Shown in pieces: positions 27,001-34,127 of a DNA stretch of 64,000 nucleotides. The first letter of the stretch is position 1, and every line of letters starts with the position of its first letter. Source of the stretch: Rhizobium sp. TH135. Its GTDB lineage: Bacteria; Pseudomonadota; Alphaproteobacteria; Rhizobiales; Rhizobiaceae. A model generated the notes under the pieces. That model was not told the origin of the DNA. It saw only the letters and a program-made list of their open reading frames with translations, and made no database searches. A program made the position numbers and the translations under genes. The stretch covers positions 62,001 to 126,000 of the forward strand of contig NZ_PKRP01000001.1 in the NCBI RefSeq assembly GCF_002855515.1, given 5' to 3'.

Positions 27001-29085
27001 TTAAGCCGCAAGCCCGTCCTTCGTATCATCGGCCACAATCCGCTCATCTGCATCAGCGGGCGCTGCCGGATTGACGATGGCCTGGAGTTCGGAAAGCGGC
27101 ACCGGGCGACCGTAGAAATAGCCCTGCACCTGCGCGCAGCCTTCGTCCTGCAGGAACCGCAGATGCTCGGCATTCTCCACGCCCTCGGCCAGAACCGGGA
27201 TATCGAGGCTCTGCGCCAGGATCAGCGTCGAGCGCACGATCGCCGCCGACTGCCGGTTATCGGCAACGTTGTCGATGAAGCCCCGATCGATCTTGATCTT
27301 GTCGAAGGGGAAGAGCTTCAGCGTCGAGAGCGACGAGTAACCGGTGCCATAGTCATCCATCGCGATCTTCACGCCGATCGTCTTCAGCTGCCGAATGATC
27401 GAGAGCGCGTTCTGCTGGTCGGCGATAATGCCGGATTCGGTGATTTCGAGCTCAAGGCGGTCGGCGGCAAGGCCGGTTTCCTTGAGAATATCCCGCACAC
27501 GCTGCGGGAAATTGCTGTTGGCGAGCTGCTTCGGCGCGACATTGACGGCGATCCGCAAGGGATTGTTCCACTTGATCGCAGCCAGGCAGGACTGCCTCAA
27601 CACCCAGTCGCCGAGCTCCATGATGAAGCCGGTCCGCTCTGCGATCGGGATGAACTCGACGGGCGATACCATGCCGCGCTTCGGATGCAGCCAGCGCAGC
27701 AAAACCTCGAAACCGACGACTTCGCCCGTCACCGTGTTGTTCTGCTGCTGGAAGTAGAGCATGAACTCGCCGCGTTCGAGACCGGCCCGCATGTCCATGG
27801 CAAGGGCGCTGCGTTCGCGGGCTGCCTGGTCCATCGACCGGTCGTAAAAACAGATCTGGTTGGAACCGATGGACTTGGCGCGGTACATCGCCGTATCCGC
27901 CTGCGCCAAGAGGTCATCGATCGTCTCGGCGCCGTCAGGCGAGACGGAAATACCGATGCTGGTGCCGATGGAGAGTGTCATGTTCTCCCACTCGATCGGC
28001 TCACCGAGATCCCTGACGATCCGTGCCGCCATCTGCTCGGCTTCCGAATGCGTAAACAACCGGGACGTCACGGCGACGAATTCGTCCCCGCCGATGCGGG
28101 CAACGAACTCACCCTCGCGAAGGCGGCGCCCCAGTCTCTCGGCAGCAATCCTCAGAACGTGATCGCCAGCCGCGTGCCCATGCACGTCGTTGATTTCCTT
28201 GAAGCGGTCGAGATCGAAGGACAGGAGATAGACCCGGTCGCCCCCTGCCGCCGGCCGCTCCAGCATGTCGCTCAGTCGCTCGACAAAGGCGCTCCGGTTC
28301 GGGAGGCCTGTCAGCGCGTCATGCAGCGAAAGCTGGCGGTAGCGCTCGACGGCCGACTTGGTGGACTGCCGGTCGATCACATAGGTCATCGAACCGATGG
28401 AGAGGATAAGGACCGTGACCAGCATCAAGACGACGGTCAGCACGCTTTCGGGTAGCATGTCGGCCGGCAGGGCCGCGGATGCATCCGGCACGACGGTGAC
28501 GCCGGTCATGCCGATGAAATGAGTGGAGGCAATCGCCAGCACAAGCGCCACACCGCCGCCATAACGGCAGAACCGGGTCACGGGCCGCGCCACGCGACTC
28601 GTCGCAATCGCTCCGAAAAGCGCACCGGCCACGAGCGAAACGGCAACATAAGTGCCGTTCCATTCGAGATGCCCCTGCACCTGATAGCCCGCCATGCCGA
28701 CGTAATGCATGGCGGCGATGCCGGCGCCCACCACCGCACCGCCCGCCTCGATCAGCAGGCTGCGCTGGGTCGCCGCTGCAATCGCAAAGCCGATCCCGGT
28801 AACGGTGATGGCAAGAACAAGCGACGCCAGCGTCGCCTTTGGCTCGTAACCGGCCAAGACGTCTGCCTCATAGCCCATCATCGCCACGAAATGGGTTGTC
28901 CAGATCGCGGCGCCACCGATCACGCTGGTCAGCGAGATCCAGCTCGCCCGTGCCACACCCCGCGTGTTTCTCACCCTGCCGAAGAGCCGCATGGTCAGCA
29001 GCGAACCGAAGACGCAGATTGAGACAGCCGCAATCAGCGACAGCGGGTCATGTTCAACAACGATACAAGTGAGAACTTCGAGCAT
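27001..29085 (-). CDS. MHYT-GGDEF-EAL cyclic-di-GMP protein
   Basis: 694 residues. The N-terminal MHYT sensor (about 1-240, seven helices) shows repeated M-H-Y/F-x-G/A patterns (THFVAMMGYEAD, AAMHYVGMAGYQV, THFIGMTGV), proposed to bind copper and sense oxygen, CO or NO. The GGDEF domain has RIGGDEFVAV with a near I-site REGE five residues before. The EAL domain reads FEVLLRWLHP (EVL variant) but keeps EITESG, DDYGTGYSSL, KID and AEGVEN. Both synthesis and hydrolysis of c-di-GMP look possible. It is transcribed alone. Confidence 0.92.
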   Translation of the reverse strand: MLEVLTCIVVEHDPLSLIAAVSICVFGSLLTMRLFGRVRNTRGVARASWISLTSVIGGAAIWTTHFVAMMGYEADVLAGYEPKATLASLVLAITVTGIGFAIAAATQRSLLIEAGGAVVGAGIAAMHYVGMAGYQVQGHLEWNGTYVAVSLVAGALFGAIATSRVARPVTRFCRYGGGVALVLAIASTHFIGMTGVTVVPDASAALPADMLPESVLTVVLMLVTVLILSIGSMTYVIDRQSTKSAVERYRQLSLHDALTGLPNRSAFVERLSDMLERPAAGGDRVYLLSFDLDRFKEINDVHGHAAGDHVLRIAAERLGRRLREGEFVARIGGDEFVAVTSRLFTHSEAEQMAARIVRDLGEPIEWENMTLSIGTSIGISVSPDGAETIDDLLAQADTAMYRAKSIGSNQICFYDRSMDQAARERSALAMDMRAGLERGEFMLYFQQQNNTVTGEVVGFEVLLRWLHPKRGMVSPVEFIPIAERTGFIMELGDWVLRQSCLAAIKWNNPLRIAVNVAPKQLANSNFPQRVRDILKETGLAADRLELEITESGIIADQQNALSIIRQLKTIGVKIAMDDYGTGYSSLSTLKLFPFDKIKIDRGFIDNVADNRQSAAIVRSTLILAQSLDIPVLAEGVENAEHLRFLQDEGCAQVQGYFYGRPVPLSELQAIVNPAAPADADERIVADDTKDGLAA

Positions 29086-29380: not shown

Positions 29381-29983
29381 ATGAGCCACGCTTCTTACGA
29401 GCTCAAGGCCGTAGCACGCGAACGGGTAGGTAAGGGGTCCTCCCGCGAACTTCGCCGCAACGGTCTCATCCCGGCTGTCATCTATGGTGACAAGCAGGCC
29501 CCGATTGCGATCTCGATCAATACGAACGAGGTCACCAAGCGCATCCACGCCGGCGGTTTCATGACCACGGTTGCAACCATCGATCTCGATGGCCAGAAGA
29601 TCCGCGTTCTGCCCAAGGACTACCAGCTCGACGTCGTTCGTGATTTCACGATGCACATCGACTTCCTGCGCGTCTCGGCAGACAGCCAGGTTTCGGTTCA
29701 GGTTCCGGTTCACTTCGTCAACGAAGAGAAGTCGGCCATCAAGACCGGCGCCGTTCTCAACATCGTTCGTCACGAAGTTGAACTGCACTGCCCGGCTTCC
29801 GACATTCCGGAAGCGATCACTGTTGACCTCGCCGGCCTGAAGGTTGGTGATGCGATCCACATTTCGGCCGTCAAGCTGCCGAAGGGTGTGACCCCGGTCA
29901 TCGCTGACCGCGACTTCACGATCGCCACGATCGTAGCTCCGGCAGGCGGCGTTTCCGAAGAAGAAGAAACGACCGAAGCCTGA
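29381..29983 (+). CDS. rplY: 50S ribosomal protein L25/general stress protein Ctc
   Basis: 200 residues, the long (Ctc/TL5) form. The N-terminal L25 domain, which binds 5S rRNA, includes [20 protein letters not shown] and [14 protein letters not shown]. The C-terminal TL5-type beta domain covers [20 protein letters not shown] and ends in an acidic tail (EEEETTEA). GAAAGG precedes the ATG. The gene has its own promoter and strong terminator, and is separated here from prs and pth, with which it usually clusters. Confidence 0.95.
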
Positions 29984-30008
29984 TCTTCAGCTCGGTTGTA
30001 ACAATTGA

Positions 30009-30037
30009 GCCCATCCCTTCGCGGGGATGGGCTTTTT
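30009..30037 (+). terminator. Rho-independent terminator of rplY
   Basis: GCCCATCCC (30009-30017), loop TTCGCG, GGGATGGGC (30024-30032), then five T residues. Confidence 0.9.
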
Positions 30038-30180
30038 GCTGTCCGATAGACTCGATTCCGACCATTTCTCTTTAGTTAGATTTAAAGTATTTCGTGAAAG
30101 CCTTCGCCTCGCAATTATTGCGTGAGGGGAGTTTTGAGCATCATGCTGCATCATCCCGCGCCTCCCGAGGCGGACTGCTG

Positions 30181-32559
30181 ATGACACGTTCGGTCGAGAG
30201 CCGATTTCTCGCCATTGTGGGGATCACGATCTTTATTCTGGTCGTGCCGCTCTTTGCGCTGTTCCTGTCTCTGGCGACGGAACGCGCTTCCAACGAACTG
30301 CAGCAAAACCTGGACATCCTGCTGGCGGCCAACGCTCAGGCCCTGGCAAAACCGCTCTGGGACTTCGACGAGGAAAGCGTCGAGCAAATCACCGCCACCA
30401 TCGTCTCCAACGGCCCCGTCAGCCGCGTCAACGTCAAGGATATCTCCGGCGGCATCTCGGTCTCCATGCCAGCGCTGCCAAAATGGCCGAAGAACGGCCT
30501 GGAATCGATCACCCGCGAAATTTTCTACCGCGCCGTCGAAGGCCCCAAGTCGGTCGGCACCATCACCATCTATTATAGCCGCATCGACATGTTTTCCTCG
30601 CTGCGCCAGGCAGAGGTCATGCTGATCGGCATCTTCATGCTCGCGGTCGTGGGCGTGGTCGGCGCAGCCATCGTCGGTAACCGGCTGATGGTCATGAAGC
30701 CGCTCCTGAAGCTCACAGCAGCAATTGAGGCGACCCGCCGGCTCGGCTCCCGCCACCATGTCGACTGGCAGTCCAACGACGAGATCGGGCGGCTGGCGCG
30801 CAGCTTCAACGCCATGCAGATCAAGCTGGAGCAAGAAGAGGCCGAACTTCGCCTCGCCCACCGGCGCTCGACCGATATCTACAACACCACCCCCGCCATG
30901 CTGTTTTCCCTCGACGAGGAAGACCGTATCACCGGCGTCAGCGACTACTGGCTCGTCGCCACAGGCTATCAGCGCCACCAGATCGTCGGCCGTCGCTTCA
31001 TCGAACTCGTGCCTGCTGAGGCCCGCTCCGGCTACCTGGAGCGCAAGAAAACCCGCTCCATCGCCGACGTGCTGGAGGCCACCACCCAGTTCGTCTGCGC
31101 CGATGGATCCGTGATGGATGTGCTAATTGCGGAAGCAAACCGCACGATCGAGGGTGCACAGGAAGACTTGTCCCTGTCGGTCATGACCGATGTCACCGCG
31201 CTTAAGCAGTCCGAAGAGCGCAACCATCGCCAGGCGATCACCGACCATCTGACCGGCCTGCGCAACCGCCAGGGCTTCGAGACCGCCCTCGACAGCGAGA
31301 TTATCGCAACCGATGCCGCAGGCGAGGAACTGGCCTGCATCTTCGTCGATCTCGACCGCTTCAAGTGGATAAACGACAATCTCGGCCATCAGGCCGGTGA
31401 CATCGTGCTCTGCCGTTTTGTCGAGCGCATGAATGATCGCCTGCCAAAGGGTGCGATTGCCGCCCGTCTCGGCGGCGACGAATTCGCCGTTCTCTTGCGC
31501 GGTCATGCGATCGAGCCTGTCGCAACCGAAATCAGCCGCGCCCTCTGCGAGATCTTCGTCGACCCCTTGACGATCGAAGGCTCGACGGTGCGCCTCAGCG
31601 CCAGCATCGGCATCGCGCTTTATCCCCGCCACGCCGCCAATGCCGCCGAGCTGCTGCAGAAGTCGGACATGGCGATGTACAGCAAGAAGCGCGACGGCAA
31701 GAACGGCGCGATGCTCTACAATTCGGAGATCCAGGACCACACCCGCCGCCGCGCCGAAATCGAGCACGACATCGAAGAAGGCTTGGCGGAAGACTGGTTC
31801 GACGCCTTCTTCCAGCCGATCGTCGAAGTCGGCACCGGTCGCACCGTCGGTTACGAGGCCCTGATGCGTCTCGTTCATCCAGAACGTGGCGTCATCCCGC
31901 CGGCCGAACTCATCTGCGTGGCGGAAGAGACCGGCGCGATCAGCCGCCTCGGCGGCCAAGTGCTGGAAAAGGCGCTCTCGAACCTTGCCCGCCTGAGTGC
32001 CGCGACCGGCGATCACGACGCCTATCTCGCCGTCAACTTCTCGCCGCTGCAGTTCGATCAGTCACTGCCCGTCCGCCTCGCCGCGCTGACCACCCATTTC
32101 GACATCGCCCCGCACCGCATCGTCATCGAAATCACCGAAGCGACGCTGCTGCATGACAATCCGCAGATCCGCACGATCCTCGATGAATTCAACCGCTACG
32201 GCTATCGCCTCGCGCTCGACGACTTCGGCACGGGCTACTCCTCGCTCAGCTACCTGAACCGCTTCCCCGTCGACATCGTTAAGATCGACCAGTCCTTCAT
32301 CCGCTCGCTGACAGAGGATGAAGCGGAACTGCGCCACAAGAGCCGCATGCTCGTGGAAGGCATCACCGCAATCTCCCACAAGATGGAATGCGCCGTGGTC
32401 GCAGAGGGCATCGAGACCGATGAACAACGGCAGATCCTGGAAGAATTCGGCGTCGACTACGGCCAGGGCTATCTCTTCGCCCGGCCACAGCCGCTGGCCA
32501 AACTGATCGAACAAGCCACCGCCACACCGGCCCGCCTGCAAATGGCCTCCGCCGGCTGA
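30181..32559 (+). CDS. Membrane sensor HAMP-PAS-GGDEF-EAL protein
   Basis: 792 residues from ATG 30181; a GTG at 30094 is in frame but adds only low-complexity sequence. TM1 (about 10-32), a periplasmic domain of about 125 residues containing ALAKPLWDFDEESVEQI, TM2 (about 145-168) and a HAMP region follow. A PAS domain (TTPAMLFSLDEEDRITGVSD), GGDEF (ARLGGDEFAVLL, no RxxD inhibitory site) and EAL (GYEALMRLVHPE, EITEAT, DDFGTGYSSLSYL, KIDQSF, AEGIET) complete it. Residues for both cyclase and phosphodiesterase activity are present. Twenty-four bases later a solitary periplasmic binding protein gene begins, which may supply the ligand input. Confidence 0.92.
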   Translation: MTRSVESRFLAIVGITIFILVVPLFALFLSLATERASNELQQNLDILLAANAQALAKPLWDFDEESVEQITATIVSNGPVSRVNVKDISGGISVSMPALPKWPKNGLESITREIFYRAVEGPKSVGTITIYYSRIDMFSSLRQAEVMLIGIFMLAVVGVVGAAIVGNRLMVMKPLLKLTAAIEATRRLGSRHHVDWQSNDEIGRLARSFNAMQIKLEQEEAELRLAHRRSTDIYNTTPAMLFSLDEEDRITGVSDYWLVATGYQRHQIVGRRFIELVPAEARSGYLERKKTRSIADVLEATTQFVCADGSVMDVLIAEANRTIEGAQEDLSLSVMTDVTALKQSEERNHRQAITDHLTGLRNRQGFETALDSEIIATDAAGEELACIFVDLDRFKWINDNLGHQAGDIVLCRFVERMNDRLPKGAIAARLGGDEFAVLLRGHAIEPVATEISRALCEIFVDPLTIEGSTVRLSASIGIALYPRHAANAAELLQKSDMAMYSKKRDGKNGAMLYNSEIQDHTRRRAEIEHDIEEGLAEDWFDAFFQPIVEVGTGRTVGYEALMRLVHPERGVIPPAELICVAEETGAISRLGGQVLEKALSNLARLSAATGDHDAYLAVNFSPLQFDQSLPVRLAALTTHFDIAPHRIVIEITEATLLHDNPQIRTILDEFNRYGYRLALDDFGTGYSSLSYLNRFPVDIVKIDQSFIRSLTEDEAELRHKSRMLVEGITAISHKMECAVVAEGIETDEQRQILEEFGVDYGQGYLFARPQPLAKLIEQATATPARLQMASAG

Positions 32560-32583
32560 CACCAAACGCAAGAGGGAACCGCA

Positions 32584-33324
32584 ATGAAAGTCCTTGGCCT
32601 TCTACTTTCACTTGCGGCGGCCCCGGTCGCCGCCGCAGACATCGTCCACTTCACGACGGAAGACTACCCACCCTACAACTTCCGCGTCGGAGCGGAGATC
32701 CGTGGCGCAGGCTACGATCAGGTCCTCCTGATGATGGAAGAGATCAAAGTCCCCTACACGCTCGAGATGATGCCCTGGGCGCGCGCCATCGCCCTGGCTG
32801 AAACCGAGCCAATGCATTGCGTCTTCACGACCGCCCATATTCCGGAACGTGACAAGAAGTTCAAATGGGTGGAGCCCATCGCCGTCGGCCGCAACTTCAT
32901 GGTCTCCGACAAGAGTTCGGGCATCAAGGTCGCCAATATCGAAGAGGCCAAGCGCTACATCGTTGGCACCCAGCGCAACGACTACACCCAGACGCTTCTG
33001 GAAAACGAAGGCTTCCCCAAGATCGACCTCGCCACCGACCTGAAGCTGACGCTGAAGAAACTGCAGAGCAAGCGCATCGACCTGATGCCGATTTCCGAGC
33101 AGCATTATATCGAGCTGCAGGAAAAGGGTGAGGAGCTCGAGGCTCAGTTCGTCTTCTCGGAGCAGAAATTCGCCATCGCCTGCAACGCAAATTTCCCGGA
33201 AGATCTGCTTGCCCGAATGCAGGGCGCGCTCGACAAGCTGATCGCCGACGGCACCCAGGCCGAGATCTTTGAGACCTATAATCTGCGCTATTCGAACTTC
33301 GGAATGGTTGCCGCCAAACCGTGA
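32584..33324 (+). CDS. Solitary periplasmic substrate-binding protein (SBP_bac_3 type)
   Basis: 246 residues. Signal peptide MKVLGLLLSLAAAPVAA with cleavage before Ala-Asp. The mature start IVHFTTEDYPPYNF and the MPWARAIALAETEPMHCVFT segment place it in the family-3 solute-binding fold, with two lobes and the typical RIDLMPISEQHYIELQ hinge region. No permease or ATPase gene is nearby, so transport is unlikely. Its position 24 bases after the membrane GGDEF-EAL gene, with GAGGGAA as ribosome binding site, suggests a ligand-binding partner of that receptor. The ligand is unknown. Confidence 0.85.
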   Translation: MKVLGLLLSLAAAPVAAADIVHFTTEDYPPYNFRVGAEIRGAGYDQVLLMMEEIKVPYTLEMMPWARAIALAETEPMHCVFTTAHIPERDKKFKWVEPIAVGRNFMVSDKSSGIKVANIEEAKRYIVGTQRNDYTQTLLENEGFPKIDLATDLKLTLKKLQSKRIDLMPISEQHYIELQEKGEELEAQFVFSEQKFAIACNANFPEDLLARMQGALDKLIADGTQAEIFETYNLRYSNFGMVAAKP

Positions 33325-33401
33325 CGATCCGACATCCGTCTTGACATTCAAGCCGTTTCGCTGTCGGGAAAGGCAAAGAACCTCAAGACGGATCTCGGGC
33401 A

Positions 33402-34127
33402 ATGATCATCCTGGCCGGCCTCGGCAATCCCGGTGCGCAGTACGCGAAGAACCGGCACAATATCGGCTTCATGGCGGTCGACGCGATCCAGCGTCGCCAC
33501 GGCTTCTCGCCATGGGCGAAGAAGTTCAAGGCCGAGATCGCCGAAGGCACGCTCGCCGGCGAGAAGGTCATGCTGATCAAGCCGCAGACCTTCATGAACC
33601 TCTCGGGCGAGAGCGTCGGCGAGGCCATGCGCTTCTACAAGCTCGGCCCCGAAGACATCGTCGCGATCTATGACGAACTCGACCTCCTGCCCGGCAAGGC
33701 CCGCATCAAGACCGGCGGCGGTCATGGCGGCCACAACGGCATCAAGTCGCTCGACGCCCATTGCGGCCTGAACTACCGGCGCCTGCGCCTCGGCATCGGT
33801 CATCCCGGCGACAAGTCAAAAGTCCACAACCACGTGCTCGGGGACTTTGCCAAGCTGGACGCCGAATGGCTCGATCCGCTGCTCGAGGCGCTCGCCGACA
33901 ATGCCGAGATGCTGGTGCGCGGTGAGGATTCGCAGCTGATGAACAAGCTCGCGCTCGCAACCGGCGGCAAGGCCGAGGACGAGAAACCAGCCAAGGCCCC
34001 AAAGGCTCCGAAACCGGCTCAGTCCCACATCCACCAGGCCCGCAACTTCAACCAGCCGAAGAAGCTTCCCGAGAGCGGCCCCATGGCCGAGATGCTGAAG
34101 AAGATGTTCGGCCCCAAGGGCGACTGA
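33402..34127 (+). CDS. pth: Peptidyl-tRNA hydrolase
   Basis: 241 residues. Pth motifs: [20 protein letters not shown] with the catalytic His, [33 protein letters not shown] with the catalytic Asp, and [13 protein letters not shown]. It releases peptides from peptidyl-tRNA so the tRNA can be reused. The C-terminal extension of about 50 residues is Lys/Pro/Ala-rich ([14 protein letters not shown]) and ends [14 protein letters not shown], a tail seen in rhizobial Pth. It is part of the core set around prs, rplY and ychF. Confidence 0.96.

Follow-up and report, generated by a model that had tools for sequence, protein, structure and literature searches.

In the 64,000-nucleotide stretch of the Rhizobium sp. 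TH135 genome analysed here (genome G000, contig C6:62001-126000; hereafter the window), the gene of a membrane receptor with GGDEF and EAL domains (30181..32559, + strand, an open reading frame (ORF) of 792 residues) is followed by the gene of a family-3 solute-binding protein (SBP; 32584..33324, + strand, an ORF of 246 residues). We consider it likely that receptor and SBP form one sensory unit, in which the SBP reports a solute to an enzyme of cyclic di-GMP (c-di-GMP). That the SBP is dedicated to this receptor is well supported by sequence comparison: the two are present or absent jointly, pairs of them occur in unlinked positions, and the adjacency is found with several types of output. 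We infer the docking, the ligand binding, the activity that prevails and the downstream behaviour. The SBP would be exported, close on a small solute and dock on the receptor's CHASE5-like periplasmic domain, and the signal would pass through the second transmembrane segment (TM2), HAMP and PAS to shift the balance between synthesis by GGDEF and breakdown by EAL. The solute would thereby set attachment and motility via c-di-GMP.

Joint occurrence of receptor and binding protein

In a sample of 60 genomes of the genus, the window's own included, SBP and receptor occur in the same 57 and neither occurs in the other three (G023, G030 and G034). Weak receptor matches only were obtained in two of these (E 1.3e-4 in G030 and 4.6e-5 in G034), and in all three rplY and pth, the genes that flank the pair in the window, are directly adjacent, about 105 to 180 nucleotides (nt) apart. 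Same-strand adjacency to the receptor was found in 55 of the 56 SBP-bearing genomes other than the window's own; in G016 it was counted from a fragmentary SBP where a contig stops, and in G018 the receptor and SBP matches lie on two contigs, the SBP contig opening with the C-terminal part of the receptor.

Across the 297 genomes of the family sample we obtained 67 strong SBP matches in 59 genomes of 21 genera, from records named Rhizobium, Agrobacterium, Sinorhizobium, Ensifer and others, and every one of the 67 lies on the same strand downstream of a receptor, 62 as the first SBP and 5 as the second of a tandem. Viewed from the receptor, 62 of 67 matches have an SBP, and 63 of the 297 genomes bear a receptor. 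The recurrence in so many genomes and genera therefore places the arrangement beyond chance; the co-presence of receptor and SBP gives a Fisher p of 5e-58, a figure that is not a probability since the genomes are related. The pair was present at 98 of the 108 loci read, with rplY before and pth after it in 92 of the 98, and the gap between receptor and SBP has a median of 26.5 nt, with a 4-nt overlap in 4 of the 96 measured pairs (starts picked by script). Of the five receptor matches not counted as having an SBP, the one in G184 belongs to a hybrid histidine kinase that carries the sensor domain; just upstream of it lies a divergent SBP, which scores 9.4e-15 on the SBP profile and matches no Pfam family at 0.01. 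A preliminary description of the window had proposed a dedicated solitary binding protein for the receptor, which is well supported by joint presence and absence together with the unlinked pairs and output types described below. Adjacency to a receptor holds for every strong SBP match of the family sample.

The SBP also stands alone in its own genome. Ten SBP_bac_3 matches were found there, 8 of them no more than 3 kb from a BPD_transp_1 permease match; for the window SBP, about 85 kb separate it from the nearest permease match on the same contig (distances compared by eye from the match coordinates). A protein search of the same genome returned a single match, the SBP itself, and no second relative. 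A further SBP_bac_3 match with no permease match nearby lies in a 471-residue open frame (G000:C7:53733-54416).

Unlinked copies and other outputs

In one genus, three genomes (G144, G236 and G300) carry a second receptor and SBP pair away from rplY and pth, the second receptor of G144 being split into two ORFs. A receptor homologue followed by an SBP was also found in another family of the same order (locus L156 in genome G095, with a 66-nt gap when the longest ORFs are taken) and in a Roseibium genome (L274, gap 25 nt), with neither rplY nor pth in the stretches read around these two loci. Both receptors match that of the window over its full length (31-34% identity in the sensor, 42-44% in PAS and 44-46% in GGDEF-EAL), and in the tree their SBPs belong to a different lineage from the Rhizobiaceae SBPs. 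Because the SBP lineage differs while the receptors match throughout, the two lineages seem to have exchanged partners while remaining neighbours.

Proteins with other outputs also stand directly beside SBP relatives: a nucleotide cyclase at L157, a histidine kinase at L153 and a chemoreceptor at L155. In Roseibium (L278), 461 nt separate an SBP gene from the divergently oriented gene of a chemoreceptor with a sensor-like domain. We used a profile of the periplasmic domain only, with no membrane or HAMP parts, to search 2106 ORFs from outgroup loci and 39 from L274-L278, and found that it matches receptor proteins only. Its matches other than GGDEF proteins were at L157 (1.6e-8), L153 (3.3e-8), L278 (4.8e-4), L155 (7.2e-4) and L200 (8.9e-3), with a value at L196 (0.89) that is not significant; the SBP alone had led to L155, L196 and L200, the sensor to L153 and L278, and both to L157. 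In G068 a sensor match and a weak SBP match (2.9e-5) lie divergently on one contig.

The possibility that the SBP family is wholly receptor-bound was rejected. The 42 scanned neighbours of out-of-family relatives (41 of 52 on the same strand, and the L200 kinase, which is divergent) gave 5 MCPsignal matches and 1 GGDEF match among the 25 of 67 families listed, and rarer families, such as permeases, may be present too. Four of the five methyl-accepting chemotaxis proteins (MCPs) beside SBP relatives were identified singly (L165, L173, L196 and L118). In the SBP tree, members linked to MCPs and members linked to GGDEF-EAL proteins are interspersed, and the forks that bear on this have moderate support.

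Weighing the adjacency

Several observations weigh against a sensory unit. The rplY-pth surroundings are stable in themselves, so adjacency within Rhizobiaceae is weak evidence taken alone and is partly inherited with them; the evidential weight rests on the joint absences and the unlinked copies of the pair. Four of the 63 receptor-bearing family genomes (G356, G191, G259 and G320) have the order rplY-receptor-pth with no SBP between, and gave no SBP match at E 1e-6. Roseibium hamelinense has a lone SBP (L104, 5956-6666), 48% identical to that of the window, with no receptor adjacent; it lies about 142 kb from the Roseibium receptor, whose own adjacent SBP is more distant from the window's. 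Among the best 40 of 54 sensor matches in 385 genomes of the class, 8 have an SBP-profile match no more than 500 nt away, which is divergent in one case, and another 2 adjoin a phosphonate-type binding protein, 10 of the 37 other same-strand neighbours having been scanned. By eye, the alignment consensus makes those eight resemble chemoreceptors and the remainder mostly histidine kinases. An SBP is not a requirement of the sensor domain itself. In the opposite direction, just 2 of 45 class-wide SBP loci contain an ORF that scores on the sensor profiles (E 0.01). In Pseudomonas aeruginosa, the AgtS sensor domain did not bind the SBPs encoded nearby, according to the part of the source used here (PMC11113362).

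A mirror-tree analysis adds one more such point. SBP distances correlate with those of the periplasmic domain beyond what rplY and pth explain (partial r 0.52), and to the same extent with those of GGDEF (0.53), with lower values for the transmembrane and HAMP parts (0.35), PAS (0.27) and EAL (0.20). Because the periplasmic and GGDEF correlations are equal, the result supports co-inheritance and not a specific interface, and we dropped it as interface support for its lack of specificity to the periplasmic domain.

If receptor and SBP were neighbours only, held together by the stable rplY-pth surroundings, then the SBP would serve an importer encoded elsewhere and the receptor would sense alone. 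The flanking genes at nearly all pairs read, the 101 BPD_transp_1 permease matches in the window's genome, the four family genomes that retain a receptor without an SBP, and the lone Roseibium SBP would all fit such an arrangement. Against it, none of the 67 strong family SBP matches lacks a receptor, three genus members lack both genes together, pairs occur in unlinked positions (L156, L274, L160 and L161), and the closest permease match on the contig is far from the SBP. On this balance we regard mere neighbourhood as improbable.

Architecture of the receptor

Hydropathy places hydrophobic spans at residues 4-37 and 141-172 of the receptor, leaving about 105 periplasmic residues between them, and the order of its parts is TM1 (within the first span), periplasmic domain, TM2 (within the second), HAMP, PAS, GGDEF and EAL. 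In Pfam, HAMP covers residues 171-218 (31.1 bits), PAS 233-287 (22.9 bits against a cut-off of 22.6), GGDEF 352-508 (132.8 bits, motif at 431) and EAL 530-769 (217 bits, motif at 559). Among 92 aligned receptors, the GGDEF, ITEA and DDFGTG motifs are kept in all 92 and EAL in 89, and the further EAL-domain motifs that were checked are largely conserved. With both sets of motifs retained, both activities are plausible, and the receptor may plausibly be bifunctional in c-di-GMP synthesis and breakdown. Equivalog names from NCBIfam (DibA and others) were rejected for the receptor, as they fall far below cut-off and the GGDEF domain model alone passes among the 25 matches listed. Two HAMP-PAS proteins of S. 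fredii, SFc23720 and SFb47640, have diguanylate cyclase activity in E. coli according to the part of the source used here (PMC8546604), and a possible orthologue among them could not be mapped.

The periplasmic domain is modelled, with modest confidence, as a long helix, a short helix after an LWDFD-type motif, and four strands, a layout that we read as possibly Cache/PAS-like. The nearest recurring Pfam family is CHASE5 (PF17149), which scores 12.6 bits on the window receptor, below its curated cut-off of 27, and matches 13 of 25 relatives at E up to 1 (best 2.3e-4), and we use the term CHASE5-like in this qualified sense. A fold search with the N-terminal model (predicted local distance difference test (pLDDT) 76.3, predicted template modelling score 0.39) was dominated by the cytoplasmic PAS and probed the periplasmic fold poorly, the first Foldseek row being a WalK-YycH model.

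The binding protein and its pocket

The SBP matches SBP_bac_3 (PF00497) at 46.5 bits against a curated cut-off of 26.4, the sole Pfam family above cut-off, and its N-terminus has one hydrophobic stretch resembling a signal peptide by hydropathy. The structure model (pLDDT 90.5) has the fold of a family-3 binding protein, and among the top-ranking solved folds are LAO (Z 21.3, root-mean-square deviation 2.5 over 218 residues), a GlnPQ-type domain (20.8) and NocT (20.5), which are tied, since we treated rows within 1 Z as equal.

The pocket was read by sequence alignment to an ancestral Arg/Gln binder, with the ligand-pocket roles being those we take these residues to have. Six residues of the SBP (E26, Y28, W65, R67, R89 and D133) are invariant in all 92 sequences; R89 preserves the Arg found in the TEER stretch, and the residue of the ancestral binder that aligns to W65 is aromatic. 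The LGST stretch of that binder is RNDY in the SBP, and its Asp aligns to S171, which is Ser in 76 and Asp in 6 of the 92. The altered LGST and Asp positions together with the kept R89 and W65 therefore suggest that the ligand is small and charged and that the way it is bound departs from the standard one. Our guess is that the ligand would be a small carboxylated, amino-acid-like solute, in a pocket that differs from that of a standard amino-acid transporter SBP. Polyamines were considered as ligand and set aside: the SBP family gives no support to them, and nothing here indicates them. Two cysteines, C79 and C200, are retained in 95% or more of the 92 SBPs and could form a disulphide or a redox switch.

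YfiR acts as an inhibitor on YfiN, and the SBP could in the same way be the partner of the receptor but a constitutive or redox-controlled inhibitor, not a solute sensor, perhaps acting via the two cysteines. Their conservation would suit that role, as would the partial alteration of the amino-acid pocket. The six invariant residues, which look like those of a kept ligand site, and the modelled family-3 fold speak against it, and we judge it to be about as improbable as mere neighbourhood. Least probable by far is an exchangeable set, in which one SBP would feed several receptors or one receptor read several SBPs and there would be no one-to-one switch: the two tandem SBPs after one receptor in all 5 genomes of genus g55 with SBP matches in the family sample (L244, L253, L256, L257 and L264), the Roseibium receptor with its own SBP besides the lone one, and the mixed SBP tree favour it, but the window's genome holds no other SBP relative by protein search.

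Gene layout around the pair

The pair lies between rplY (L25/TL5; 29381..29983, + strand) and pth (peptidyl-tRNA hydrolase; 33402..34127, + strand), both identified by Pfam scan and both outside the unit. An intrinsic terminator after rplY (30007..30034, + strand; 12-bp stem with 7 GC, fold -23.3 kcal/mol, z -3.86) forms the upstream boundary of the unit and so separates receptor and SBP from rplY. The receptor-SBP gap is 24 nt (32560-32583), with an AGAGGGA stretch preceding the SBP ATG. The strong terminator and the short gap together suggest that receptor and SBP are cotranscribed. A sigma-70 promoter scan of 29900-33500 gave no match, and the promoter was not located. An inverted repeat at 30107-30127, around GCAATTATTGC (30111-30121), lies between the terminator and the receptor start and is a possible operator.

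These features agree with the preliminary description, which had read the first gene as a HAMP-PAS-GGDEF-EAL protein with a periplasmic domain (as the Pfam domains and the two hydrophobic spans confirm) and the second, 24 nt further on and still between rplY and pth, as a family-3 SBP with a signal peptide (as ORFs, Pfam and hydropathy confirm). Its statement that no permease or ATPase lies near the SBP holds for the scanned neighbours, among which no ATP-binding cassette (ABC) genes were found on either side of the pair, and is in keeping with the distance to the closest permease match on the contig.

Upstream of the unit lie a GAF/Fis-type regulator and, just beyond rplY, a divergent gene for an MHYT-GGDEF-EAL protein (27001-29085, - strand). 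A GGDEF/EAL-like ORF stands at the same position in L150, L151 and L152, so that two c-di-GMP enzymes flank rplY there. The six ORFs scanned downstream encode a methyltransferase, TetR, L-PSP, ClpS, YchF and a 132-residue product without a family.

Wider interpretation

To our knowledge, most of the external signals that control c-di-GMP are unknown. A secreted SBP, being soluble, lends itself to direct ligand screening, so the pair opens a way to the signal behind a c-di-GMP enzyme that occurs in 63 of 297 sampled genomes of a single family. Many members of Rhizobium, Agrobacterium, Sinorhizobium, Ensifer and related genera live with plants. Going further, we tentatively propose, while thinking it somewhat likelier to be wrong than right, that the pair is one form of a mobile sensory cassette. 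Mostly solitary family-3 SBPs and a CHASE5-like sensor would serve at least four outputs across Alphaproteobacteria (c-di-GMP enzyme, cyclase, histidine kinase and chemoreceptor), with partners swapped and adjacency kept, and in Rhizobiaceae the cassette would be a conserved c-di-GMP switch for a non-polyamine rhizosphere solute, separate from NspS-MbaA.

Comparison with known systems

The preliminary description had likened the pair to NspS-MbaA. As in that system (Vibrio cholerae, S. meliloti), a binding-protein gene adjoins the gene of a HAMP-GGDEF-EAL membrane enzyme, and the likeness stands for the mode of working; it fails for the type of SBP, the gene order and the size of the sensor, and there is no sign of polyamines. 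NspS is PotD/PotF-like and its gene comes first, overlapping or at most 20 nt from that of MbaA, in the part of the source used here (PMC9993111), whereas the window SBP belongs to SBP_bac_3 and follows its receptor gene 24 nt downstream. The same part of that paper gives S. meliloti its own NspS-MbaA (smc00991-smc00992), with an MbaA that has periplasmic residues 24-256 and an SGDEF motif; the window receptor, in contrast, has a sensor of about 105 periplasmic residues, a GGDEF motif and a PAS domain. In ScrABC of Vibrio parahaemolyticus, a GGDEF-EAL membrane enzyme is under the control of a periplasmic binding protein and the aminotransferase ScrA makes the signal, as stated in the portion of PMC11315295 used here. 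ScrB-ScrC serves us, beside NspS-MbaA, as a model for how the pair would work. The pair likewise joins an SBP and a GGDEF-EAL membrane enzyme in one unit but has no aminotransferase gene (its neighbours are rplY and pth), a distinction drawn from the description of ScrABC. By the features tested, the pair is outside both systems.

A 2022 review (PMC8846402), in the part used here, names RmcA of P. aeruginosa as the sole protein whose periplasmic-binding-protein-clan domain has been studied in c-di-GMP networks. In both RmcA and the pair an SBP_bac_3 module is tied to c-di-GMP control; in RmcA it lies within the receptor, whereas here it is a separate secreted protein (two ORFs). AruS of P. aeruginosa resembles the receptor in having a CHASE5 sensor with an SBP gene close by, the sensor domain being insoluble according to the part of PMC11113362 used here, but AruS and AgtS are histidine kinases with SBP_bac_8-type SBPs. 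The main text of an alphaproteobacterial comparison of c-di-GMP genes (PMC9756655) contains no word starting with "solute", and none of the titles and abstract openings listed by searches of an open-access literature collection describes this family-3 SBP/receptor pair. As would be expected of an SBP-coupled c-di-GMP receptor, the window receptor keeps its catalytic GGDEF and EAL motifs and is encoded with its SBP, which has no transporter beside it. The pair would add a separate family-3 SBP to the short list of such receptors.

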